This document shows, in pieces, positions 5,816 through 52,303 of a stretch of 64,000 bases of DNA. This DNA is from Alkalinema sp. FACHB-956. Its GTDB lineage: Bacteria > Cyanobacteriota > Cyanobacteriia > Leptolyngbyales > Leptolyngbyaceae. The notes below the pieces were generated by a model. That model made no database searches, was not told the DNA's origin, and saw only the letters and a program-made list of their open reading frames with translations. The DNA lies in assembly GCF_014697025.1 (NCBI RefSeq), contig NZ_JACJRC010000008.1, forward strand, positions 1 to 64,000. The letters run 5' to 3'. Position 1 is the first letter of the stretch, and each line of letters opens with the position of its first letter. The position numbers were made by a program, and so were the translations under genes.

Positions 5816-6802
5816 GTGGTTACTGTTCAACCCACTCCCCACCTACTTTTGAGAAGTGAATCGGGCAGTCAGCGGCTACCGTTGGCCGAGGGCACTTGCT
5901 GGACGATCGGCCGAGGGGATGAAAATGACTTCGTTTTAGGCGATCGTTGGATTTCTCGGAACCATGCCATGCTGCAAAGTATGGAAAATGGCGAAATATA
6001 TTTGATTGATTTAGGCAGCCGTAACGGATCCTTCGTAAATGGTCGTCGGGTCAGTGTTCCAGTCACCCTCCGCAATGGGGATCATTTAACCTTTGGACAA
6101 ACGGAGCTGGAGTTTTACTGTCCTGCTTCCCAGTTTGAACAGGATGAAGAGTCCCGAGAATTTACGGCCACAGCCACGTTACATGTACGTCGCCTGATTT
6201 CTGTGCTGGTGATTGATATTCGGGATTACACGGTTTTGACCCGGCAACTGGATGAAGGCATCCTGTCGGAAATGATTGGCCAATGGTTCCGGCGAGCGGG
6301 GGATATTATCCGCAAGCATGGTAGTTGGGTGGATAAATATATTGGGGATGCCGTGATGGCCGTCTGGATTCATGGTGCCCAGGAGGTGAGCCCCCAGGAA
6401 ATGCTCTCGGTGGTGCAATCTGTGGATGAACTGCACCAAATGACCAACGAACTCTCCCAAATTTATCCTGTGCCCTTTCCCTTACGCATTGGAGCCGGTG
6501 TTAACACAGGGTTTGCCATGGTTGGGAATACGGGAACTGGCGATCGACCCGACTATACCGCCCTCGGCGATACTGTCAATGCGGCCTTTCGGCTAGAAAC
6601 CATTACCAAGCAAATTGGCCGGGATGTGGCGATCGGCGAAACCACCTACCAATACATGGTGCCGTTGCTGATTGCCTGTGACCCCTTTAAACAACATACG
6701 GTCAACCTGAAGGGGTACGACGAGCCCACCAACGCCTACGCCGCCTCCTTCCAGCAAGTCAATGAATTTTTGCTCCGACAGGCCGCTACTCCCCGTTCTT
6801 AA
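5816..6802 (+). CDS. FHA-domain class III adenylate cyclase
   Basis: A 328-residue cytosolic protein. Residues about 25-100 form an FHA phosphothreonine-binding domain (WTIGRG, then SRNHA, then LGSRNGSFVNG). Residues about 130-320 form a class III nucleotide cyclase domain. The two metal-binding Asp residues are D134 and D137 (VIDIRDYT). The substrate-specifying Lys (VDKYIGD) and Asp (PDYTALGD) are those expected for ATP, so cAMP synthesis is predicted, with activity tuned by binding a phosphorylated partner. FHA-cyclase fusions are known in cyanobacteria. The start is GTG 5816; no in-frame ATG occurs before the FHA core. The gene is monocistronic between the repeat-rich spacer and psbU. Confidence 0.9.
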   Translation: MVTVQPTPHLLLRSESGSQRLPLAEGTCWTIGRGDENDFVLGDRWISRNHAMLQSMENGEIYLIDLGSRNGSFVNGRRVSVPVTLRNGDHLTFGQTELEFYCPASQFEQDEESREFTATATLHVRRLISVLVIDIRDYTVLTRQLDEGILSEMIGQWFRRAGDIIRKHGSWVDKYIGDAVMAVWIHGAQEVSPQEMLSVVQSVDELHQMTNELSQIYPVPFPLRIGAGVNTGFAMVGNTGTGDRPDYTALGDTVNAAFRLETITKQIGRDVAIGETTYQYMVPLLIACDPFKQHTVNLKGYDEPTNAYAASFQQVNEFLLRQAATPRS

Positions 6803-40587: not shown

Positions 40588-43500
40588 TTAGTTGGCGTTG
40601 CCTATCAGGTTAAATGCAGCCCAGTCACTTGGGTGAGGGTACTTCTTTCTAGTCTCCAACATGGCTTGACGTAGGGCTTGAGCCTTTTGGGATGGGTCTA
40701 CCTTGAGACGTTGATAAAACTCTGTCATAAGGAAGGCTGTACTTTCATCCTTCACATTCCATAGAGAAACGACCACGCTGGGTACCCCTGCAATAAACAA
40801 CGATCGCGAGAGTCCAATCACGCCATCGCCTGTGATGTCCCCCCGTCCGGTGCTACAGGCGCTCAGAACGGCTAAATCGGCTTTGAGTTTTAAATCCAGG
40901 ATTTCACCAGCAGTTAAAAAGCCATCATTGCCTGCTGAAGGGGTGAGCGCGATCGCACCAGGCACTTCACCTCGGAAGGTGTCGAGTAATCCATGGGTTG
41001 CGAGATGAATCACGCTAGCAGTTTTGATTTGTTTCAGGACTTGAGTTTTCGTTGCTTGGCGGCCAATGAGGGCAGAACTTTGTAGGAGTTGGGCAATTTG
41101 GGTCGCTTCCTGCTCGGCACCGGGTAAGGACTCCAAAGGCTCGTTATTGTAGGTTGGCATCTGCGGATTTCCCACAATCAGCGGTGCAGCGAGCGGCGTC
41201 GATCGAGCGGAGGATGACGTAAGTTCGATCGCTTGTAAAGCAGGTGCAGTGGCGATCGTATGACGGAGGATGAGGGAATTACCTTGCCCATCCTCCAAGG
41301 CCGCAAAGGGCACTAGAAATAAAGCACCTTGGGGAACAAAGATGACCAAATCCTCGGGATTGGTTGGTAAATCCTGGGTAATGGGGGCAATCAGCAGATT
41401 GTGAAGGTGGTGTAGGTTATTGACTAAGCCCCGGGCCATTGTATTTGGCTGTTGGGTAATGGTGATCTTGGCACGACCTCTGACGCCTAGTTCATCTCGA
41501 CTGTCTTGGATCAGGGTTGCGATCGATTCAGGGGCTGTGTTGCGATAGAAGCGCACGGTTCCATCGGGCTTGATCACCCAAATATAAACTTCCTGGTTGC
41601 CAATCAGGGAATATTGCACCAAGGTGGCATTGAGCCTTTGGGCAATTTGACGTATTTCTTGGATTTTTGGGACCGTGCCTAATAACGGTTGACTTTGGTT
41701 AAGCTGTTGGCTTTGGTTAAACGGTTGGCTTTGGTTAAACGGTTGACTTTGGTTACCCAGCCGACTGGCGAGAAGTTCGACAAAAGCCCTTGCCCGTCCC
41801 CGTTCTGCGGCTTCCAAGGCAGCTTCTGGTTTTTGTTGCAGAATCAAGGCGGTTTGCAGCAACTCATAGGTTGATTTTTGGGTTTCAAACAGTGACACCC
41901 GATCGAAATCTGTGAGGCCGGGACGTTGCGATTCCCAGAGTTGTGCGGCTTGGCTGAGGAGATCGACTGCGGTAGCCGATCGCTGCTTCTGAATTTGCAC
42001 CGCCCCCAGGAGTGTGAGGGCTTTCGCCGTTGTGGCATGGTTCCCCAGCCGTTGGGCTAGGGCGATCGCAGCTTGTAAATGCTGTTCCGCTAGCTGAAGA
42101 TTCCGGCGATCGAGGGCGACTTTGCCTAACTCCGTTAATAGTTCTGTTTCTTCGGGTTGTAATTTGAGTTGTTTGGCAAGGGTCAGTCCGGTTTGTAAGG
42201 TCTGTAGTGCCTCAGGGCTACGATTTTGCTGAACGTACAGACGACCCAGTTGTTTCAGCGTACCAATTTCCGTGCGTCGGCTACCCAATTCCCGATGTAG
42301 CAGGAGGGCTTGCTGGAGGGTTTGTTCCGCCCGGGGCAGTTGTCCCATGTCTAAATACAAACTGCCTAATCCGCTGAGGGCAACGGCTTCATGAATTTTG
42401 CTGCCCATTTCGCGAGCCATCGTTAAGGCCCGATCGTACAATTCCTGGGCTTTGGCATAGCGCCCCAGGGTGCGATAGGCAAACCCAAAACTGACCAAGG
42501 TGCCCAGTTCCGCTGGACGATTGCCGATCGCTCGATGAATGTCCAATGCCTGCTGATGATAGGTTAAACCTTTGGCGTACTGGGCTTGATCCCCATAGAG
42601 GCGGCCAATGTTGTCTAAATTAATGGCCTCCAGGTTTTTCTCGCCGATTTCTCGGGCAATCAGCAAGGCTCGCTGATGGTAATCCAGCGCTCTGGAATAA
42701 TCGCCCAACGTGGCATAGAACACCGCAAAATTAGCAAAAGTCACCGCCTGCCCCGGACGATTGCCTGTGACTTGGTACAACATCAGGGCATGCTCATACT
42801 GCTGACGGGCGTTGGGATAATCTCCCAGGGTTTGCTGGGTTGACCCCAGGTTGTTCAAGACCGTCGCCTCATTATCGAGGTCGTTAATGGTTTGGGAGAG
42901 ATATCGAGCTTGTTGATAGGTGGTCAGCGCTTGGGAATAATCGCCTTGCCGATCGTAGACTTGGCCAATGTTATTTAACGTGATGGCCATTTGGCTCCGG
43001 TTGTTGAGCGACTGGTGGATTTGCAAACTTTGTTGGTAGAGGGTAAGGGCTTGGGCATATTGCCCCAGATTGGTATAGAGATTGGCTAGATTATTCAGAC
43101 TGGTGCCCTCATTACTTTTATCCCCCAAGGCTCGATCGATCATCAGCCCACGCTCATACAGACCACGGGCCGTTGAGTAATCCCCCAAGCGGACATAGCT
43201 ATTTCCCAGATTGGTCAGCGATCGGCTTTCCAGCACCTTGCCCTGGTTCACCAGTTGGAGTCGCAGCTTGTTGAAACTTTCGAGCAAAACCGTCTCTGGC
43301 AGCTGTTTGGCATCGCAAAACTGACGCATGAAGCGATGGAGCGAGGAGTTTTCACCCCCTTGGGCCGCTTCGCAACTCCGCGCTAAGTTCCGAGAGGTAA
43401 TCGCTTCACCATAGCGCGTTTGCATTTCCTGGGCGGTCTGTAACCCCTGGAGATAGCGCGCGATCGCCTGCGTATGATTGCCTTGACGGTTTTGTAGCGT

Positions 43501-44247
43501 ACCCAGGTTATTGAGAATAGCGGCAATTTGTTGCCGATCGCCGCTCTGCTGAGCCATTGTCAGAGCTTTGTGATAAATGTCGATCGCGAGGGCCGTTTCT
43601 GACAAGTCATCATAGGTTCTGCCCAACGTTATCAGCAGAATCGATCTCAGCTCATGCGGGTCTGGCAATACCGTTAGAGCCTGTTTCAGGATGGGAATGG
43701 CTTGGCGATACTGCTGTTGCTCCCGTCGGAGATTGGCTAAAGCCAGTAACGAGAGTCCTTGGCCTTCGGGATCCGCCATGACTTGTGCAAATTCGAGCGC
43801 AGTTTGATAGGCTGCGCGGGCCCGATCGAACTGTCGTTGATGTTGTAATTCGGCACCTAATCCACTGTAAGCAATCCGTAAATTTGCGGTAATTCCTTGA
43901 TACAGAGGATGGTCCTTAGACAACATTTGTCGCGCTTCTTGTAGAACTGCGATCGCGGCTTGATATTTTTCCTGCTGGTGATAAACTTGACCGATATTCC
44001 AAAGTGTTTGCGCAATCTTTGGTGTATCCCGCCGTTGGCGAAAGTCCTTCAGTGCATTTTGGTAGTGGTGTAGAGCGAGATCAAGGTTGCCTGCTTGGAG
44101 TGCGATGGTGGCTGCTTGCAGGGCTGGATGGGAGGTTTGAGGAGTGGATGCGACTTGGGCAAGGGTAGTGCCCGGAAAGAACAAGCCGATCGGCGTAGAG
44201 ACCAAGAGAACCGTCATTGTTGCAAGTTCTACCCATTGCCGACCCAT
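40588..44247 (-). CDS. Exported TPR-CHAT domain protein
   Basis: A 1219-residue protein. A signal peptide (MTVLLVSTPIGLFFPGTTLA, ending near residue 30) is followed by about 18 tetratricopeptide repeats of the Kinesin-light-chain type to residue 800, then a C-terminal CHAT domain. CHAT is a caspase-like peptidase fold; the expected dyad is present as H1085 (HLATHGLLD) and C1131 (LSACSTGRGD). TPRs should bind the partner and activate the protease, by analogy with CHAT proteins such as TPR-CHAT of type III-E CRISPR systems, though no CRISPR gene is near. Export to the periplasm makes it different from those. A Phe-Asn-Gln-Ser-Gln-Pro insertion (18-bp DNA repeat) precedes the CHAT domain. ATG 44247 has a strong AAGGAG. 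Confidence 0.9.
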   Translation of the reverse strand: MGRQWVELATMTVLLVSTPIGLFFPGTTLAQVASTPQTSHPALQAATIALQAGNLDLALHHYQNALKDFRQRRDTPKIAQTLWNIGQVYHQQEKYQAAIAVLQEARQMLSKDHPLYQGITANLRIAYSGLGAELQHQRQFDRARAAYQTALEFAQVMADPEGQGLSLLALANLRREQQQYRQAIPILKQALTVLPDPHELRSILLITLGRTYDDLSETALAIDIYHKALTMAQQSGDRQQIAAILNNLGTLQNRQGNHTQAIARYLQGLQTAQEMQTRYGEAITSRNLARSCEAAQGGENSSLHRFMRQFCDAKQLPETVLLESFNKLRLQLVNQGKVLESRSLTNLGNSYVRLGDYSTARGLYERGLMIDRALGDKSNEGTSLNNLANLYTNLGQYAQALTLYQQSLQIHQSLNNRSQMAITLNNIGQVYDRQGDYSQALTTYQQARYLSQTINDLDNEATVLNNLGSTQQTLGDYPNARQQYEHALMLYQVTGNRPGQAVTFANFAVFYATLGDYSRALDYHQRALLIAREIGEKNLEAINLDNIGRLYGDQAQYAKGLTYHQQALDIHRAIGNRPAELGTLVSFGFAYRTLGRYAKAQELYDRALTMAREMGSKIHEAVALSGLGSLYLDMGQLPRAEQTLQQALLLHRELGSRRTEIGTLKQLGRLYVQQNRSPEALQTLQTGLTLAKQLKLQPEETELLTELGKVALDRRNLQLAEQHLQAAIALAQRLGNHATTAKALTLLGAVQIQKQRSATAVDLLSQAAQLWESQRPGLTDFDRVSLFETQKSTYELLQTALILQQKPEAALEAAERGRARAFVELLASRLGNQSQPFNQSQPFNQSQQLNQSQPLLGTVPKIQEIRQIAQRLNATLVQYSLIGNQEVYIWVIKPDGTVRFYRNTAPESIATLIQDSRDELGVRGRAKITITQQPNTMARGLVNNLHHLHNLLIAPITQDLPTNPEDLVIFVPQGALFLVPFAALEDGQGNSLILRHTIATAPALQAIELTSSSARSTPLAAPLIVGNPQMPTYNNEPLESLPGAEQEATQIAQLLQSSALIGRQATKTQVLKQIKTASVIHLATHGLLDTFRGEVPGAIALTPSAGNDGFLTAGEILDLKLKADLAVLSACSTGRGDITGDGVIGLSRSLFIAGVPSVVVSLWNVKDESTAFLMTEFYQRLKVDPSQKAQALRQAMLETRKKYPHPSDWAAFNLIGNAN
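41686..41757. repeat. 18-bp tandem repeat, 4 units, in CHAT gene
   Basis: Units CGGTTGACTTTGGTTAAG, CTGTTGGCTTTGGTTAAA, CGGTTGGCTTTGGTTAAA and CGGTTGACTTTGGTTACC encode the Asn-Gln-Ser-Gln-Pro-Phe/Leu repeats in the linker before the CHAT domain. Frame is kept. Confidence 0.92.
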
Positions 44248-44544
44248 GGTCTTCTCCTTGGTGCATCGATTGCCTAGGCGCTATTTCTTTAATTTAAAAT
44301 TGCTGCTCGCCAGATCAGTAATTTTCCGGAGAATGTCTTCCAGATTAGGTCTAGAGAAATAAGCCGTTGGATAGGAAAATCCCTGGTTGGTTGACCTGAT
44401 TGGGAGAAGCTGAACGATCCAGTCTGTTTAAGGCTCCTGAAGGGGAGCTTGGTAGTTGAACTTCTTCCAAGGGAACTCTGAAATGAGTGGTTTTACGGAT
44501 TGATTGGCTTCGCTGTGTAGGTGTGCAACGCCCTAGAGATCTTT
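44248..44544. other. Divergent promoter region of CHAT gene and kinase-cyclase gene
   Basis: This 297-base spacer separates the divergent CHAT-TPR and kinase-cyclase genes. Apart from the AAGGAG of the CHAT gene no repeats or terminators were recognised. The kinase-cyclase frame is open back to GTG 44521. Confidence 0.4.
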
Positions 44545-47500
44545 ATGCTCCAACTTCCTGGTTATCAAGTCTTGAATCCGCTGTATGTCGGAGCGAACTC
44601 CACCGTCTTTCGGGGCTGTCGGTTAGCGGATAGCTGTCCAGTGATTCTTAAAGCATTACAGATCACGTCTTCTGATCCGTTTGAGCAGTCGCGCTACCGT
44701 CAGGAATACGATCTACTGCAATTGCTTGACCCGATCGGGGGCGTCATTCAAGCCTATGACTGGGTCATGCATCAACAAGTTCCTATCATCATCTGTGAAG
44801 ATTTTGGGGGCCAGTCGCTGGAAGATTTTCTAGTGCAGCAACCGTTGAGTTTGGAGCAATTTTTCCCGATCGCGATCGCCATTACCAACATCCTGGGGGA
44901 AGTCCACGCAGCCCAAGTCATCCACAAAGATCTCAACCCTGCCAATATCCTCATCCACCCGCAAACCCATGAAATCAAGCTGATTGACTTCGGGATTGCA
45001 ACGTTATTGACCCGAGAAAATCCAGCGATTAAAAACCCCAACGGGTTAGAGGGCACCCTGGCCTACCTCTCACCGGAGCAGACTGGGCGCATGAATCGCC
45101 AGGTGGACTACCGCACCGATTTTTATTCCTTGGGGGCGACTTTCTACCGCTTACTCACTCGGCAGTTCCCCTTTGAAGCCAAGGATGCTCTGGAACTTGT
45201 CCATTGTCACCTAGCCCGCTTGCCCCAGCCTGTCCATGAGCTGAATGGGGCGGTGGCACCGATCTTGTCGGCGATCGTGGGCAAATTGATGGCTAAAACC
45301 GCTGAAGATCGCTATCAAAGTGCTTGGGGGATCCAAGCGGATTTGGAAACCTGTTGGCAACAGTGGCAAACACAACGGACGATCGCGCCGTTTGTGCTGG
45401 GTCAACAGGATGTTTCTAGCCAGTTTCAAATTCCCCAAAAACTCTACGGTCGGGATGGAGAGATTCAAACACTGCTGGCAGCCTTCGATCGTGTGGCGTC
45501 TCCACCGGAGAATCGGGTACCTAGTCACGCGGGGGGCAGCGAACTGGTTTTAGTGACAGGCTTTTCCGGCATTGGTAAGTCAGCCCTGGTGCAGGAGGTG
45601 TATAAACCGCTGACCCAGCGGCGGGGCTATCTGATTTCGGGCAAATTTGACCAAGTGCAGCGCAACATTCCCTATCGGGGGTTTGTGTCTGCTTTGTCTA
45701 GCTTGATTCAGGAGTTACTAAGCGAAACGGAAGCGGAACTCCAAAATTGGCGATCGCGATTGCAAGCGGCTCTCGGACAAAATGGCCAAGTGATTGTGGA
45801 TGTGATTCCAGCGGTTGAGCTGATCATCGGCCCCCAGCCCCCTCTGGCCGATTTGCAGCCCTCCGAGGCTCAAAACCGCTTTAATTTAGTCTTTCAAAAT
45901 TTCATTCAAGTTTTTGCCCAATTAGAACATCCCCTAGTTTTATTTTTAGATGATTTACAGTGGGCAGATAGTGCCTCCTTGAAGTTAATTCAACGGTTGC
46001 TAGTGGGCGACGATCGGCAAAATTTACTCTTAATCGGAGCCTATCGAAGCAATGAGGTGAATGCTAATCATCCGTTGCAGTTAGCGATCGAAGAGATTCA
46101 AAAAGCGCAAGGTCGAATTTCTCAAGTATCGCTCAATCCACTCGGGCTCAATGATGTTCAACAATTGATTGCCGACACGGTTAAAACGACGATCGAGGCC
46201 GTTGAAGATCTCGCTCAACTCGTTTTACAGAAAACAGAGGGGAATCCTTTCTTTTTAAATGAATTTCTAAAAACGCTGTATACCCAAAAACTCATTGACT
46301 TTGACACTCGTCAAGGGCAGTGGAATTGGGACTGTACCCAGATTCAAGATTGCGGCATTACAGACAATGTAGTAGAGCTGATGACACAACGGATTCAGCA
46401 ATTGCCGTCCATGACCCAAAAAGCCTTGCAGATGGCTGCTTGTATTGGTGCCCAATTTGATTTAAAAAGTTTGGCGATCGTGATGCGCCAGTCCTGTAAA
46501 CAGACCTTGCAGGATCTACAGGATGCCATTTCCGTAGAATTGCTCTACGGAATCGATCGCGTGATTCACCCAGAAACCTTAGAGAGTGATTTGCTAACGA
46601 GTGAATTGCTAACGATTGATTTTGAAAGCCAATTGCGCTATCGCTTTGTCCACGATCGCATTCAGCAAGCAGCCTATGGGTTAATTCCTGAGTCTGATAA
46701 ACAGCGGATACATTGGCAAATTGGACAGTTGTTACTCGCACAGACTCCCCCGGAACAGCAGGAACAAAAGTTATTTGAATTGCTGAATCATTTGAATTTG
46801 GGGCGATCGTTTTTGACCAGTGAAGCCCAACGACAACAGGTGATTCAACTGAATTTGGAAGGGGGAATCAAAGCTAAACAATCCGCTGCCTATGAGCCAG
46901 CCTTGCAATATTTTGAAATCGCGGTGGAATTATGCCGTGATCAGGATTGGCAGGATCAGTTTGATTTGATCTGGCAGGTTCACCGTGAAATCGCTGAAGC
47001 TTGCTGCATTTGCTCACAGTTCGATCGGATGGGTCAATTCGCCGCGATCGCGCTCAGTCAAGAGCAAGATGTGTGGAAACAGGCAGAAATTCAAACGATT
47101 TGCATCCAAGCTGCGATCATGCAGAACCAACCCCTTCAGGCAATCCAAATCGCCCATCGGGTCTTGCGTCAAATGGGTCTACGGTTGCCGAAAAAACCGC
47201 ACCAGGGTCATGTAATTTGGCAAATGTTAATCACCCAGGCCAAACTAGCGCGGAAAACGCCACAAGTGCTGCTAGATCTGCCGGAGATGCAAGATCCGAA
47301 AATGGATATGATGCTGAGTCTCATGGGTCGAGTGGGCGCAGCATCCTATTTTGCTTACCCCGAATTTACATCCATTCAGATGTTCAAATCGATTCAAATT
47401 GCGTTGAACCATGGCACTCATAGTAACTCCAGCGGTAACTATGCCACCTATGGCCTCGTGCTCTGCGGTGTTTTAGGAAAGATCCCAGAAGGCTATAAGT

Positions 47501-49953
47501 TTGGCAAACTGGGCATGGATTTGGCCAATAAGCACCCGTTAAACCGTGCATCTGTAATGACCAAGTTTGTATTTAATTTCCTGATTCGCCACTGGCAAGA
47601 TCCCTTACATTCCCTCATTCCTGAGTTCACAGAAGGATACCAGAACGCCCTAGTGGTTGGAAATCTAGAGTACGCAGCTTATTTTCTATTTAGCCGCTGC
47701 AATCTCAAGTTTTTAGCAGGTCGGGACTCCTTGGTTGATTTGATACAAGACCTGAAGGACTGCACGGAGACGATCGATCAATTGAATCAAGTGGCGACAG
47801 GGCGATGGATTCGGGCAACGTTGCAAGTGGTACAAAATTTCTTACAGCCTTCTGATAATCCCCATTTGTTACAGGGGGAGTTCTACCACTTGCCAGACAT
47901 GCGGCCCTTGCATGAAGCGGCTAACGATCGCACGATCATTTTCCAAGCCTATTTCTATCAGGCGATGCTAGCCTATCACTTTAGACAGTGGGAGACCGCG
48001 ATCGAAGCGATTCGTTTGACGAAGCAATTTGCAGATTCAGCCATTTCTTCTCCTGTCATTTCAATTCTGAATTTCTACGAATCCTTAACGCATTTATTTG
48101 GTTATTCCCAATCGTCTAAACAGCAGAAAAAACAGATATTAAAAGTAGTCAAGGCTAATCAGAAAAAGTTAAAGGAATGGGCTAAACATAATCCCAACAG
48201 TTGTCTCCATAAATTCCATTTAGTCGAAGCGGAACGGCAGCGCCTGCTGGGAAATCCCATTCAAGCCATGCAGCACTATGAACAGGCGATCGCCCTTGCC
48301 TATGACCATGGCTATCATCAGGAATCCGCGCTGGCCAATGAACTGGCTGGACAGTTTTACTTGCAACTCAATCAACCCGTTCCCGCGAAGGTTTACTTGG
48401 AAAAAGCTTGTGCAGATTACCAATATTGGGGCGCGATCGCCAAAGTGGAATGGTTAAGAACGACCTATCAGGACTGGTTAGCCCCGGTTGGGCTGGGAGC
48501 CCAGGCTGGAGGGACAACGATGAGCAATACCATGACACTGTCCCAGGGGACTTTATCCACCACCGATCGTGGCAATTTCCTAGATTTAGATACCGTGGTC
48601 AAGGCCGCCCAGGTGATGACGGGCGAAATCGTTTTAGACAAACTCCTGTCTAAACTGATGCAAATTTTGATTGAAAATATGGGAGCGCAAATTGGGTATT
48701 TGATTCTAGAGTCCAAGGGGCACCTCTGTATCGAAGCAGAAGGCTCGATTGATCAGGCGCAAATCACCGTGTTACGAGGCATTCCTGTCGAGGATTCAGT
48801 GAGTTTGTCAACCGCGATCGTGAATTACGTGGCTCGGACTGGGGAAAGTGTGGTTCTCTCCGATGCCAGGGACGATCGGCGCTTTCAACAAGACCTCTAC
48901 ATTCAACAACAGCACCCCAAATCCGTCCTCTGTGCGCCCCTAGTCAACCAAGGGCGCGTGAGTGGCTATGTTTATCTAGAAAATAACCTGACCGTTGGAG
49001 CCTTTACCCCCGATCGCTTAGCACTGCTCAACGTGCTCTCCTCCCAGGCCGCCATTGCGATCGAAAATGCCCGCTTGTATACCAATTTAACGGAACTCAA
49101 TAACGCCTATTCCCGCTTTGTCCCGCGCCAATTCTTACAATTCCTCAACAAAGATAGCGTGGTTGATGTACAGCTAGGGGATCAACAACAGTTAGAAATG
49201 TCTGTCCTGTTTTCCGATATTCGATCGTTCACGACCCTCTCGGAACAAATGACCCCGCAGGAAAACTTCCAATTTATTAATGACTACCTCAGTCAGATGG
49301 AACCGGTGATCATTGATCACCAGGGCTTTATTGATAAATATATCGGGGATGCCATCATGGCGTTGTTTGGTCGATCTGCGGATGATGCGGTGCGGGCCGG
49401 GATTGCGATGCTGCGGACCCTCGATCGCTTTAATAAAATTCGGAACCAATCCGGAAAACCTTCGATCCAAATTGGAGTTGGCATTAACACGGGCCTGCTG
49501 ATGCTAGGAACCGTGGGTGGCTACAATCGCATGGATAGTACGGTAATTAGTGATGCCGTTAATTTAGCTTCTCGCATTGAAGGTCTGACCAAGACCTATG
49601 GTGTGAACCTGTTGATTACAGAACAAACGTTACAAAAATTAGAAAACCCGGATCAATATCACATTCGTAAAATCGATCGCGTTCAAGTGAAAGGGAAGTC
49701 GGAAGTAATCACGGTGTATGAGGTCTTTGATGCTGACCCACCGCCTCGTTTAGCAGCCAAATTGGCAATGTCTGACCAGTTTAATCAGGCAATTCAGCTG
49801 TACGAGTCAGGTGATTTTGCGATGGCGATGCATGAGTTTGTCCAATGTCTAATGCATCACCCATCGGATCTCGTTGTTCGGCATTATCTCAAGCACTGTA
49901 TGCAACGGCGTTTTCAGATCGTGCGCGATCGGCAACTAGCTGGGGAATTCTAG
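44545..49953 (+). CDS. Giant Ser/Thr kinase-AAA ATPase-GAF-adenylate cyclase
   Basis: An 1802-residue signalling protein. Residues about 6-270 are a Hanks-type protein kinase with K36, catalytic D129 (HKDLNPANIL) and D148 of the DFG motif. Residues about 300-560 are an AAA/STAND-type ATPase: Walker A GFSGIGKS with K345 and Walker B LVLFLDDLQWAD. A long helical TPR-like region spans about 790-1330. A GAF domain follows (about 1345-1510), then a class III cyclase with metal Asp D1558 (FSDIRSF) and the Lys and Asp (DKYIGDA, MDSTVISDA) expected for ATP. The kinase-AAA-GAF order is that of HstK-type hybrids, which end in a histidine kinase; here a cyclase replaces it. ATG 44545 is chosen over GTG 44521. 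It is divergent from the CHAT-TPR gene. Confidence 0.92.
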   Translation: MLQLPGYQVLNPLYVGANSTVFRGCRLADSCPVILKALQITSSDPFEQSRYRQEYDLLQLLDPIGGVIQAYDWVMHQQVPIIICEDFGGQSLEDFLVQQPLSLEQFFPIAIAITNILGEVHAAQVIHKDLNPANILIHPQTHEIKLIDFGIATLLTRENPAIKNPNGLEGTLAYLSPEQTGRMNRQVDYRTDFYSLGATFYRLLTRQFPFEAKDALELVHCHLARLPQPVHELNGAVAPILSAIVGKLMAKTAEDRYQSAWGIQADLETCWQQWQTQRTIAPFVLGQQDVSSQFQIPQKLYGRDGEIQTLLAAFDRVASPPENRVPSHAGGSELVLVTGFSGIGKSALVQEVYKPLTQRRGYLISGKFDQVQRNIPYRGFVSALSSLIQELLSETEAELQNWRSRLQAALGQNGQVIVDVIPAVELIIGPQPPLADLQPSEAQNRFNLVFQNFIQVFAQLEHPLVLFLDDLQWADSASLKLIQRLLVGDDRQNLLLIGAYRSNEVNANHPLQLAIEEIQKAQGRISQVSLNPLGLNDVQQLIADTVKTTIEAVEDLAQLVLQKTEGNPFFLNEFLKTLYTQKLIDFDTRQGQWNWDCTQIQDCGITDNVVELMTQRIQQLPSMTQKALQMAACIGAQFDLKSLAIVMRQSCKQTLQDLQDAISVELLYGIDRVIHPETLESDLLTSELLTIDFESQLRYRFVHDRIQQAAYGLIPESDKQRIHWQIGQLLLAQTPPEQQEQKLFELLNHLNLGRSFLTSEAQRQQVIQLNLEGGIKAKQSAAYEPALQYFEIAVELCRDQDWQDQFDLIWQVHREIAEACCICSQFDRMGQFAAIALSQEQDVWKQAEIQTICIQAAIMQNQPLQAIQIAHRVLRQMGLRLPKKPHQGHVIWQMLITQAKLARKTPQVLLDLPEMQDPKMDMMLSLMGRVGAASYFAYPEFTSIQMFKSIQIALNHGTHSNSSGNYATYGLVLCGVLGKIPEGYKFGKLGMDLANKHPLNRASVMTKFVFNFLIRHWQDPLHSLIPEFTEGYQNALVVGNLEYAAYFLFSRCNLKFLAGRDSLVDLIQDLKDCTETIDQLNQVATGRWIRATLQVVQNFLQPSDNPHLLQGEFYHLPDMRPLHEAANDRTIIFQAYFYQAMLAYHFRQWETAIEAIRLTKQFADSAISSPVISILNFYESLTHLFGYSQSSKQQKKQILKVVKANQKKLKEWAKHNPNSCLHKFHLVEAERQRLLGNPIQAMQHYEQAIALAYDHGYHQESALANELAGQFYLQLNQPVPAKVYLEKACADYQYWGAIAKVEWLRTTYQDWLAPVGLGAQAGGTTMSNTMTLSQGTLSTTDRGNFLDLDTVVKAAQVMTGEIVLDKLLSKLMQILIENMGAQIGYLILESKGHLCIEAEGSIDQAQITVLRGIPVEDSVSLSTAIVNYVARTGESVVLSDARDDRRFQQDLYIQQQHPKSVLCAPLVNQGRVSGYVYLENNLTVGAFTPDRLALLNVLSSQAAIAIENARLYTNLTELNNAYSRFVPRQFLQFLNKDSVVDVQLGDQQQLEMSVLFSDIRSFTTLSEQMTPQENFQFINDYLSQMEPVIIDHQGFIDKYIGDAIMALFGRSADDAVRAGIAMLRTLDRFNKIRNQSGKPSIQIGVGINTGLLMLGTVGGYNRMDSTVISDAVNLASRIEGLTKTYGVNLLITEQTLQKLENPDQYHIRKIDRVQVKGKSEVITVYEVFDADPPPRLAAKLAMSDQFNQAIQLYESGDFAMAMHEFVQCLMHHPSDLVVRHYLKHCMQRRFQIVRDRQLAGEF

Positions 49954-49996
49954 GGTTAAATCTTCCCAAGATTTTCACTTTTCCAAGATTTCCACG

Positions 49997-50096
49997 GTGA
50001 TTGCTGACGCAGTGATTACTAACAGTGATTACTAACTACGTAGTGATTACTCGAGGATTACTCGAGCTACAGTGATTACTCGAGGATTACTCGAGG
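49997..50096. repeat. 27-bp and shorter GTGATTACT repeats
   Basis: AGTGATTACTCGAGGATTACTCGAG occurs twice (about 50042-50066 and 50071-50095), preceded by shorter GTGATTACTAAC copies. It lies in the 241-base spacer before the carotenoid oxygenase gene, which otherwise shows no feature. The long frame from 50072 would translate into the repeat and is not used. Confidence 0.85.
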
Positions 50097-50194
50097 GCAA
50101 TGAATCAACAGGGTGCATCACGGGTTTTATAGCCAGTTCCTTGCGGGACTGCAACGGTTTCGCACATATTTCCCATCAATTTAATGAGGCTCTG

Positions 50195-52303
50195 ATGACC
50201 ACTCGTTATCCTGTGTCTACGCCTTCCAATTTTGTGCTCTCTACAGATAAGGCTGCTCCGTTAGAATTAGTCAATAACAAGGCAGAAATTACGTCTACGG
50301 TACGGTTTCCAGACGCTGGGATGATCACCAGCCGCGAAGAAGTCACCGATCGTCCCTTGCAAGTTCTTGAAGGCTCCCTACCCGCCGATCTAACGGGGCA
50401 TATCATTTTTATGAGTCCTGCAGGCAGCATCGATATGCAAGAGCAGGCAGGAAAACCGCTCTATCCTTCGGCGGACGGCACCTCTTTGTTTAACGGTGAT
50501 GGCATGGTGCGTCGTTTCGACTGCCGCCCGGAGGGTATCCGCTATACCAGTCGTCTCCTCAAAACCCCTTGCTACTATGCAGATGCAGCCAGCCGTCCGG
50601 GAACCCGCTATGCAGACCTGAAGTTTTTCAGCAGTGGATTGGCTCGGTTTTCCTTCATGCTGGGTTTCCGGGATGAAATTAACACCGCTTGTATTCCGGT
50701 GAAATTTACAGGCGATCGCCATTGGCGGCTCTTGGCCTCCTGGGATGCGGGGCGACCCTACGAAATTGATCCGTTGTCCTTGAAAGTAGTCACCCCCGTC
50801 GGTTCCAATCAAGAATGGCGCGAACAGAAATTACCTTTTAGATACGGCCCCTTCCGCTTGGTCACTACGGCAACGCACCATGCCTACGATGACCATACCC
50901 AGGAACTCTGGACGGTTAACTGGGGGAAATCGTTGTTAACGATGGTTTCTCCATTAGTGATTCAAATCTTTCGATCGCTCACCCGAGGCAATCCTTTGCT
51001 GGAATTTCTCGGCAAAATTGCCTTTTGGGTGATGATGCAAGTGCTGCAATTTGTTAGCTTGATTTTGCATGTCTTTGGCTTTGGGGGCGAGGACTTTGTT
51101 CGGTTGATGCGCTGGGACGGCCAAGGCGAACTCAAAGGATGGAAGGTCGTTCTGCCGACAGGTTTACCCGTGCAAATCGAGCAAAGTATGCACCAAGTTG
51201 GGGTGACCCGAGATCACATTGTGTTGATGGATACGTCTTTCAAACTGGGGCCAGAACAATTAATTCCCAATCCCTTGCCGGGGAATACCCAAACGGAACG
51301 GGTGATTCGTAAGGTATTGAATTACGCCCAATTCCCTGACACAAATGTGTATATTGTGCGGAGATCGGACTTAGATCCCAGCAAGGATAAAGTGGTTGCC
51401 CATCAAGTGAAGATTAAGCGAGAAATTGCTCACTTCCGGGTTGATTATGATGATTCCAATGGCATTGTGCTCCATGTTGCCCATAACAATGCTTGGGATC
51501 CTTCGGAATGGCCGCAAGCCTATGATAACTTTGTCCCGTCTCCGCCCAATCCGGCTCCCGTGGACGATCGCATCGATCGCTTAGTGGGAATGACCGTTAC
51601 CACAACGGATCTGAACTATTTGGGCCGCTATGTGATCAATCCCAAGAATTGGAAAATCACGGAGGAAAAACGGGTCAGTGATCCGGCCTGTACTTGGGCA
51701 CCCGCGCTCTATGCAGATAATGGCACGCTGACTGCACCGGAGCACTACAACACTATTTACTGGAATGCCTGGGGTTGCTGGGATGAGTTAATGACGGAAT
51801 TCATTGCCAACCTCTACAAGAAATACAAATATCGCCAACTGCCGTTGCAAGAGGTGTTGCAGTACGCCAGTAAGGGCCAACCCGCGAGCCTATGTCGCTT
51901 GGATACCCAGTCCATGACGATCGTGGATCAATACGCCTTCCCATCCGGTTATTTTGGGAACTCGCCGCAGTTTGTGCCTCGGGATGCCAACAGCTCCGAT
52001 CCGACCGATGGTTATCTCGTGTGCGGCGTAATTTTTGATGGGGCGGAGGGGCAATTAAACAGTCAACTATGGGTGTTTGATGCCAAGAACCTCGCCCAAG
52101 GGCCGGTGTGCAAGCTGGGTGATTCGGAGGGTAAGAGCCTGTTTGGGTTAACCATTCACACAACTTGGATTCCAGAGATTGCCCCCCGCACGGCCAGTTA
52201 CTGCATTCCCGTACGATCGGACTATGATCCGTTGTTACAAGACCAGCCGGAAATTGTGCGGGAGTTGTTTGAGCAGGAAGTGTATCCCCACTTTGAGGCG
52301 TAA
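50195..52303 (+). CDS. Carotenoid oxygenase (RPE65/CCD family)
   Basis: A 702-residue non-haem iron enzyme of the carotenoid cleavage family, a seven-bladed propeller that splits carotenoids or apocarotenoids to aldehydes. Four iron-binding His are plausible in TTATHHAYDD, HQVGVTRDH, IAHFRVDYDD and FGLTIHTTWIP. It is longer than the usual 480-540 residues: an inserted hydrophobic region (MMQVLQFVSLILHVFGFG, about residues 285-302) could bind the membrane. The substrate is unknown. ATG 50195 has TGAGG 6 bases upstream and is preferred over the frame's earlier start at 50072 in the repeat tract. Confidence 0.88.
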   Translation: MTTRYPVSTPSNFVLSTDKAAPLELVNNKAEITSTVRFPDAGMITSREEVTDRPLQVLEGSLPADLTGHIIFMSPAGSIDMQEQAGKPLYPSADGTSLFNGDGMVRRFDCRPEGIRYTSRLLKTPCYYADAASRPGTRYADLKFFSSGLARFSFMLGFRDEINTACIPVKFTGDRHWRLLASWDAGRPYEIDPLSLKVVTPVGSNQEWREQKLPFRYGPFRLVTTATHHAYDDHTQELWTVNWGKSLLTMVSPLVIQIFRSLTRGNPLLEFLGKIAFWVMMQVLQFVSLILHVFGFGGEDFVRLMRWDGQGELKGWKVVLPTGLPVQIEQSMHQVGVTRDHIVLMDTSFKLGPEQLIPNPLPGNTQTERVIRKVLNYAQFPDTNVYIVRRSDLDPSKDKVVAHQVKIKREIAHFRVDYDDSNGIVLHVAHNNAWDPSEWPQAYDNFVPSPPNPAPVDDRIDRLVGMTVTTTDLNYLGRYVINPKNWKITEEKRVSDPACTWAPALYADNGTLTAPEHYNTIYWNAWGCWDELMTEFIANLYKKYKYRQLPLQEVLQYASKGQPASLCRLDTQSMTIVDQYAFPSGYFGNSPQFVPRDANSSDPTDGYLVCGVIFDGAEGQLNSQLWVFDAKNLAQGPVCKLGDSEGKSLFGLTIHTTWIPEIAPRTASYCIPVRSDYDPLLQDQPEIVRELFEQEVYPHFEA

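Follow-up and report, generated by a model that had tools for sequence, protein, structure and literature searches.

An HstK-type putative receptor protein of Alkalinema sp. FACHB-956 with a predicted adenylyl cyclase in its output position, and the recurrence of its layout in other bacteria

The gene at positions 44545 to 49953 (+ strand) of the window, by which we mean the whole stretch of 64,000 nucleotides that was analysed, encodes a protein of 1802 residues in which a Hanks-type kinase, an AAA_16 ATPase, a TPR superhelix and a GAF domain lead up, in this order, to a class III cyclase at the C-terminus. Taken as a whole, this protein is best explained as a one-protein receptor of the HstK/Chk1 type, with a kinase, a STAND switch and its TPR sensor, a GAF and, as output, an adenylate cyclase; ligand-gated STAND assembly would probably join the cyclases, and cAMP would be made for CRP-type receptors. 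The original prediction had described an HstK-type core on which a complete adenylyl-type cyclase replaces the histidine kinase; this description holds, but the arrangement is not singular, since it recurs in several phyla. The protein is a real, uncharacterised example of a recurring variant that has been tabulated once before.

The reading frame is open over 1802 codons, as had been predicted, and a GTG at 44521, upstream of the 44545 start, offers an alternative start that would add eight residues. The domains were observed directly in a Pfam search, the check proposed with the original prediction, which returned the predicted order with matches above the curated cut-offs for Pkinase (residues 11-225, 111.6 bits), AAA_16 (299-497, 137.4 bits), GAF (1364-1506, 69.1 bits) and Guanylate_cyc (1548-1724, 80.2 bits). 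That two neighbouring genes were joined through a sequencing error has a negligible chance of being true, as full-length relatives with the same order were found on independent contigs, which excludes both chance and assembly error. As to context, an operon partner was sought at the locus, and the neighbours are a divergent gene for a TPR-CHAT protein (40588..44247, - strand) and a downstream gene for an RPE65/carotenoid oxygenase-type protein (50072..52303, + strand), with neither of which a functional link is claimed. The latter starts 118 bp downstream of the cyclase gene, behind short direct repeats (49963-50095) that comprise five copies of CAGTGATTACTAA-like units and an exact 25-nt AGTGATTACTCGAGGATTACTCGAG pair; since the repeats overlap the listed GTG start at 50072, the true start of this gene is unsure. 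Elsewhere in the window, a second, weaker Guanylate_cyc match (37.5 bits, above the cut-off) lies at 6197-6688 (+ strand) in a frame of 349 residues.

The kinase domain (44575..45348, + strand; residues 11-268) was delimited by Pfam over residues 11-225 and by alignment with PknB structures over residues 13-268. It carries K36, E54, H127-K128-D129, N134 and D148-F149-G150, and hence the VAIK lysine, the HxD aspartate, the asparagine and the DFG aspartate of Hanks Ser/Thr kinases; the active site, including the Asp129 named in the original prediction, is intact, and the kinase is predicted to be catalytically competent. Of 60 cyclase-bearing proteins, 54 have all of K36, D129 and D148, five carry changes among them, and one further sequence (L165) is cut by a contig edge; among proteins without this cyclase the kinase is intact in 38 of 41, with a contig edge cutting one of the other three. 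The five exceptions (L120, L179, L182, L185 and L208) have each lost at least one of the three kinase residues with their cyclase residues kept, so that the kinase, although usually maintained, can evidently be lost. Three of them (L120, L208 and L182) have degenerate kinases (Lys to Arg, catalytic Asp to Asn) next to persisting NTPase and cyclase residues and may be regarded as natural pseudokinase versions.

The region that follows, described in the original prediction as AAA/STAND with a TPR-like part, is present, and its AAA portion is better described, on the predicted fold, as a STAND switch joined to a TPR sensor. The AAA_16 NTPase (45439..46035, + strand; residues 299-497) contains a Walker A motif (GFSGIGKS) and a Walker B motif (LVLFLDD), and the rest of the STAND module together with the TPR superhelix (46036..48435, + strand; residues 498-1297), delimited by alignment, AlphaFold model, Foldseek and VIA-align, contributes R501, GNP at 566-568 and H703-D-R705. 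These are the Walker A, the Walker B with its DD, the downstream arginine, the GxP and the winged-helix histidine, a set that we take to mark STAND NTPases. In a 14-row alignment K345, D469-D470, R501, G566-N-P568 and H703 are invariant, and in a larger set of 102 rows every one retains the Walker A lysine and both Walker B aspartates. The AlphaFold model of residues 285-1345 (48 sequences) has a mean pLDDT of 87.4, and its first Foldseek match is the STAND-TPR structure 6mfv (E 4e-10), presumably PH0952, followed by Avs3 in second place and MalT (8bob) in fourth (E 1.5e-5). VIA-align gave Z scores of 16.7 for MalT, 15.9 for 6mfv and 15.5 for Apaf-1, at rmsd values of 4.9 to 8.7; high Z scores are, however, easily reached by helical repeats, which weighs on these matches, and TPR proteins without a STAND part (an APC/C subunit and APPBP2) scored 18.4-19.6, above MalT. 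Against the TPR part (residues 921-1297), Rap peptide sensors reached a Z of 21.8. The Foldseek TM-scores for 6mfv are only 0.34/0.50, with an rmsd of 11.8, from which we conclude that the domain placement differs between the model and this structure.

The GAF domain (48634..49062, + strand; residues 1364-1506) was assigned by Pfam and lacks the NKFDE cyclic-nucleotide motif, which was found in none of 102 GAF domains by a regular expression whose spacing is our assumption and which was run without a known NKFDE protein as positive control. From the GAF, a long helix (49009..49113, + strand; residues 1489-1523), followed by a conserved RFVPRQFL segment, is predicted by the AlphaFold model and the alignment to lead toward the cyclase catalytic domain (49186..49716, + strand; residues 1548-1724), which was delimited by Pfam, alignment and model matches and precedes a predicted C-terminal helical tail (49741..49947, + strand; residues 1733-1801). 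The GAF-cyclase model, built from 37 of 42 prepared sequences, has a mean pLDDT of 88.6, and all 50 of its listed structural matches are nucleotide cyclases, the best being of class III and including CyaC, CyaB and photoactivated adenylyl cyclases.

Within the catalytic domain we read D1558 and D1602, K1598 and T1666, and N1673 and R1677, which we take to be the metal-binding aspartates, the purine-specificity pair and the transition-state pair, respectively, of a class III adenylate cyclase; the complete cyclase with both metal aspartates and adenylyl-type specificity residues that had been predicted is therefore there. In a HMMER alignment, K1598 and T1666 fall on the lysine and threonine of Pseudomonas aeruginosa CyaB (3r5g) and on the glutamate and glycine of the guanylyl cyclase Cya2 (2w01). 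All six residues are kept in 60 of 60 cyclase-bearing rows, all found via a cyclase search, although for K1598, D1602 and T1666 this is in part a result of selection, as 46 of the rows were picked by patterns that include K1598 or T1666 with their neighbours, only the window protein and 13 rows from a search of 388 genomes having been chosen without a pattern. It is quite improbable that the domain is inactive or makes cGMP and serves as a dimerisation arm only: a search of the literature, with subscription journals mostly outside its reach, found no biochemistry or activity assay of the protein or of a relative with the same layout, which leaves room for such a reading, but the full set of metal, K/T and Asn/Arg residues here and in the other rows, and the agreement of the K and T with CyaB and not with Cya2, speak against it. 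We predict from these residues an adenylyl-type class III cyclase that should make cAMP. Ser/Thr phosphorylation and cAMP synthesis may, as the original prediction proposed, be combined in one protein. Receivers of cAMP are plausible, given 16 matches in the genome to the cyclic-nucleotide-binding family PF00027, 13 of them above the cut-off; the genome also holds 16 matches to PF00211.

These features can be combined into a mechanism on the basis of two general properties: a class III cyclase of this kind functions as a dimer, and activation of a STAND protein leads to its assembly, so that a STAND core acting on a TPR-bound ligand would pair the cyclase arms. The favoured sequence of events would be as follows: (i) a ligand, which may be a small molecule, a peptide or a protein, binds to the TPR/GAF part; (ii) the STAND NTPase swaps its nucleotide and then presumably oligomerises; (iii) the GAF-helix-cyclase arms would be drawn together by this assembly; (iv) the cyclase, active only as a dimer, would produce cAMP for CRP-type receptors; and (v) the kinase most likely tunes the switch through auto-phosphorylation, or marks a partner protein. 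A linear cascade, in which the kinase phosphorylates the GAF/linker or the cyclase and so switches cAMP synthesis, with cAMP reporting kinase activity and the STAND part only regulating the kinase, would account for the retention of K36, D129 and D148 in most cyclase-bearing proteins, which argues that catalysis is used. We nevertheless consider it rather unlikely, because the five proteins with a lost kinase residue keep their cyclase residues and because proteins that lack this cyclase retain the kinase to the same degree, so that it is not tied to the cyclase; together with the predicted STAND switch and TPR sensor, this means that the kinase is not necessarily the driver of the cyclase.

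The count of the architecture in cyanobacterial genomes that had been suggested along with the original prediction showed it to be recurrent. A search with the last 290 residues against 388 genomes of the class of the window (cyanobacteria, judged from named relatives) gave 14 other matches in frames of more than 1500 codons, and the kinase-AAA-TPR-GAF-cyclase order is present in 13 of these, from 12 genomes. For the 388 genomes this is a lower bound, because scoring was limited to at most six candidates in each genome and the listing to matches above about 246 bits. In one of the 13 (L117) PAS matches lie between the GAF and the cyclase, and in the fourteenth (L119, genome G055) the frame lacks a kinase and has the AAA domain only in part before TPR-GAF-PAS-cyclase. 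In named genomes a single-protein query returned nothing, while an alignment of GAF-cyclase parts matched at least 588 stretches, with the full order in 47 frames within the best 80 loci; the two genome sets overlap, and one duplicate frame was removed from later counts. Most full copies among these 80 loci belong to Cyanobacteriota (Microcoleus, Nostoc, Oscillatoria, Laspinema, Anabaena catenula and others), and a contig of a Trichodesmium erythraeum metagenome-assembled genome (L161) carries TPR-GAF-cyclase and runs off the contig start. Beyond cyanobacteria, full copies come from Thiomargarita, Candidatus Albibeggiatoa, Leptospirales, Verrucomicrobiota, Myxococcota and Tumebacillus flagellatus, mostly in metagenome-assembled genomes, where binning errors are possible; among these, L163, L165, L166 and L179 come from the records under the names Thiomargarita, Candidatus Albibeggiatoa and Tumebacillus flagellatus, L179 being the T. 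flagellatus copy with a changed kinase. Three loci (L152, L159 and L200) each hold two GAF and cyclase frames within less than 18 kb, possibly tandem duplicates, one of the two being cut by the locus start in L159 and L200. A scan of viral contigs gave 11 loci. A plasmid scan matched 1181 records, and among the 15 listed, 14 align only up to residue 1515-1537, the other being a Legionella lytica plasmid with a cyclase annotation, whose two aligned pieces (4-1732, 37%) extend into the cyclase. The layout thus recurs in several phyla and is not unique.

The core itself (residues 1-1515) is homologous to that of HstK-type proteins, with about 34-46% identity over roughly residues 1-1520 to many relatives and to paralogues in the same genome. 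Nine other HstK-type proteins, examined here as strong AAA_16 matches in this genome, end in a histidine kinase in seven cases, the ending that the original prediction had given to the whole type, but in GGDEF (L131) and AAA_35 (L130) in one case each, which makes the slot a general site of exchange. HATPase_c was found at the C-terminus of 18 out of 24 relatives and SpoIIE at that of one, eight of the 24 being cut by the locus end. In genome G017 (L121:4927-5643) the same kinase-AAA-TPR-GAF core carries another kind of class III cyclase, with 228 bits to PF00211 vs 80 for the window protein; the same genome also holds a fusion of the window type.

Trees bear directly on the history of these outputs. 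For 48 proteins, 13 of them cyclase-bearing and with the long-branched L120 left out, enforcing a single cyclase clade on the core from kinase to TPR lowered the lnL by 291 (AU p 1.75e-5), while for the GAF alone it cost 13.8 lnL (AU p 0.235), so that one clade was not rejected by a domain whose 171 columns give less power to reject it. Starred branches force at least seven changes in the 48-row core tree, six and eight in 49-row trees with L120 included, and, for 102 proteins (60 cyclase-bearing), at least 13 on the core (FastTree) and two on the GAF. In a control for power, windows of 170 residues along the chain required 6-11 label changes (46-47 rows) and 11-21 (100-101 rows), as against 5 and 9 for the GAF, which is the lowest value by a small margin, the best kinase window requiring 6 and 11; L121, labelled apart in the trees, was left out of this comparison. 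When the fused cyclase domains were placed among 48 unfused ones, from which cyclases with a frame off the locus start or, for loci from the genome search, a score below 100 bits had been excluded, a single clade was rejected as well (AU p 6.27e-5), although long branches are present and starred branches alone force only three changes. A single ancient fusion, inherited vertically as a fixed gene family, would fit the somewhat tighter clustering of cyclase-bearing rows on the core tree than under shuffled labels (8 changes vs 11.6, with 5 of 500 shuffles as low), but is very hard to reconcile with the rejection of one clade on the core and among unfused cyclases, with the changes forced by starred branches and with the second, different cyclase of L121, and we give it little credence. 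Repeated exchange of outputs on the core is thus well supported, the cyclase-bearing proteins not forming one clade on the core and the GAF not rejecting one, and joint movement of GAF and cyclase as a unit is favoured, not proven. Such exchange suggests that the signal transmitted by the core is generic, a bringing together of effectors, and not specific to histidine kinases. Going further, we tentatively raise the possibility that the kinase-STAND-TPR core serves bacteria generally as a receptor chassis, with cassettes of GAF and effector (a histidine kinase, either of two kinds of cyclase, GGDEF, SpoIIE or AAA_35) being swapped on it as units, the cyclase form being an induced-proximity adenylate cyclase whose dimer would be created by ATP-driven STAND assembly on a peptide-like ligand.

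To our knowledge, the activation step of the large HstK-type and fungal Chk1/Mak2/Mak3 receptors is poorly understood. The cyclase version would give such a receptor an easily measured product: in an E. coli cyaA strain, the state of kinase, STAND switch and TPR sensor alike could be read directly from the cAMP level, and ligands could be screened in this way.

The architecture is already in print as a table entry, as a 2007 survey lists Trichodesmium erythraeum Tery_2857 as 'cbSTKII; GAF, CYCc' and places its kinase in the large cbSTKIII (HstK) cluster of dual Ser/Thr-histidine kinases (PMC2176072). By this description Tery_2857 resembles the window protein in uniting a kinase, a GAF and a class III cyclase; in the accessible text of the survey the term 'AAA' is absent and we found no discussion of the cyclase (PMC2176072). 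The idea of shuffling is likewise not new for the family, since incongruent kinase, GAF and HisKA trees were described there, with domain shuffling named as one explanation (PMC2176072). HstK (Anabaena Alr2258) and the cbSTKIII dual kinases, compared here as a family, share the core, with a kinase and an intervening GAF, but end in a histidine kinase where the window protein ends in a cyclase; as Pfam matched neither HisKA nor HATPase_c in the latter, even with E values of up to 0.1 admitted, it is a sister architecture to HstK and not a dual kinase. The fungal receptor Chk1 has a Ser/Thr kinase, AAA_16 and GAF in the same order, followed by a HisK-REC end, and Mak2 and Mak3 are said to share its domains (PMC9069115), their kinase and GAF being also described in PMC5383687. 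These proteins are eukaryotic and end in HisK-HATPase-REC, unlike the cyclase-ended window protein, whose TPR part bears a likeness to Chk1 through a weak match to Pfam TPR_CHK1 (residues 1107-1263) that falls below the family's own cut-off. The Chk1-type kinase domain is sometimes joined to an ATPase and occurs in diguanylate and guanylate cyclase proteins (PMC9069115), and Myxococcus PKN2 is a different kinase-cyclase protein (PMC1262709). The cyanobacterial GAF cyclases CyaB1 and CyaB2 also join GAF to a class III adenylate cyclase, but CyaB2 has tandem cAMP-binding GAFs, and most GAFs that bind cyclic nucleotides are marked by NKFDE (PMC4411481), whereas the window protein has a single GAF on a kinase-STAND core; as this GAF lacks NKFDE, the cAMP-binding route of CyaB2 probably does not apply to it. 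The STAND switches PH0952 (6mfv), MalT (8bob) and Apaf-1 (3sfz) resemble the core in its predicted arrangement of NTPase and helical repeats, but share about 11-13% sequence identity with it and have effectors of their own. Human soluble adenylyl cyclase (ADCY10) and bacterial cyclase-AAA-TPR proteins likewise link a class III cyclase to a STAND-like chain of NTPase and TPR, but there the cyclase is N-terminal and no kinase is present, whereas in the window protein the cyclase forms the C-terminal output.
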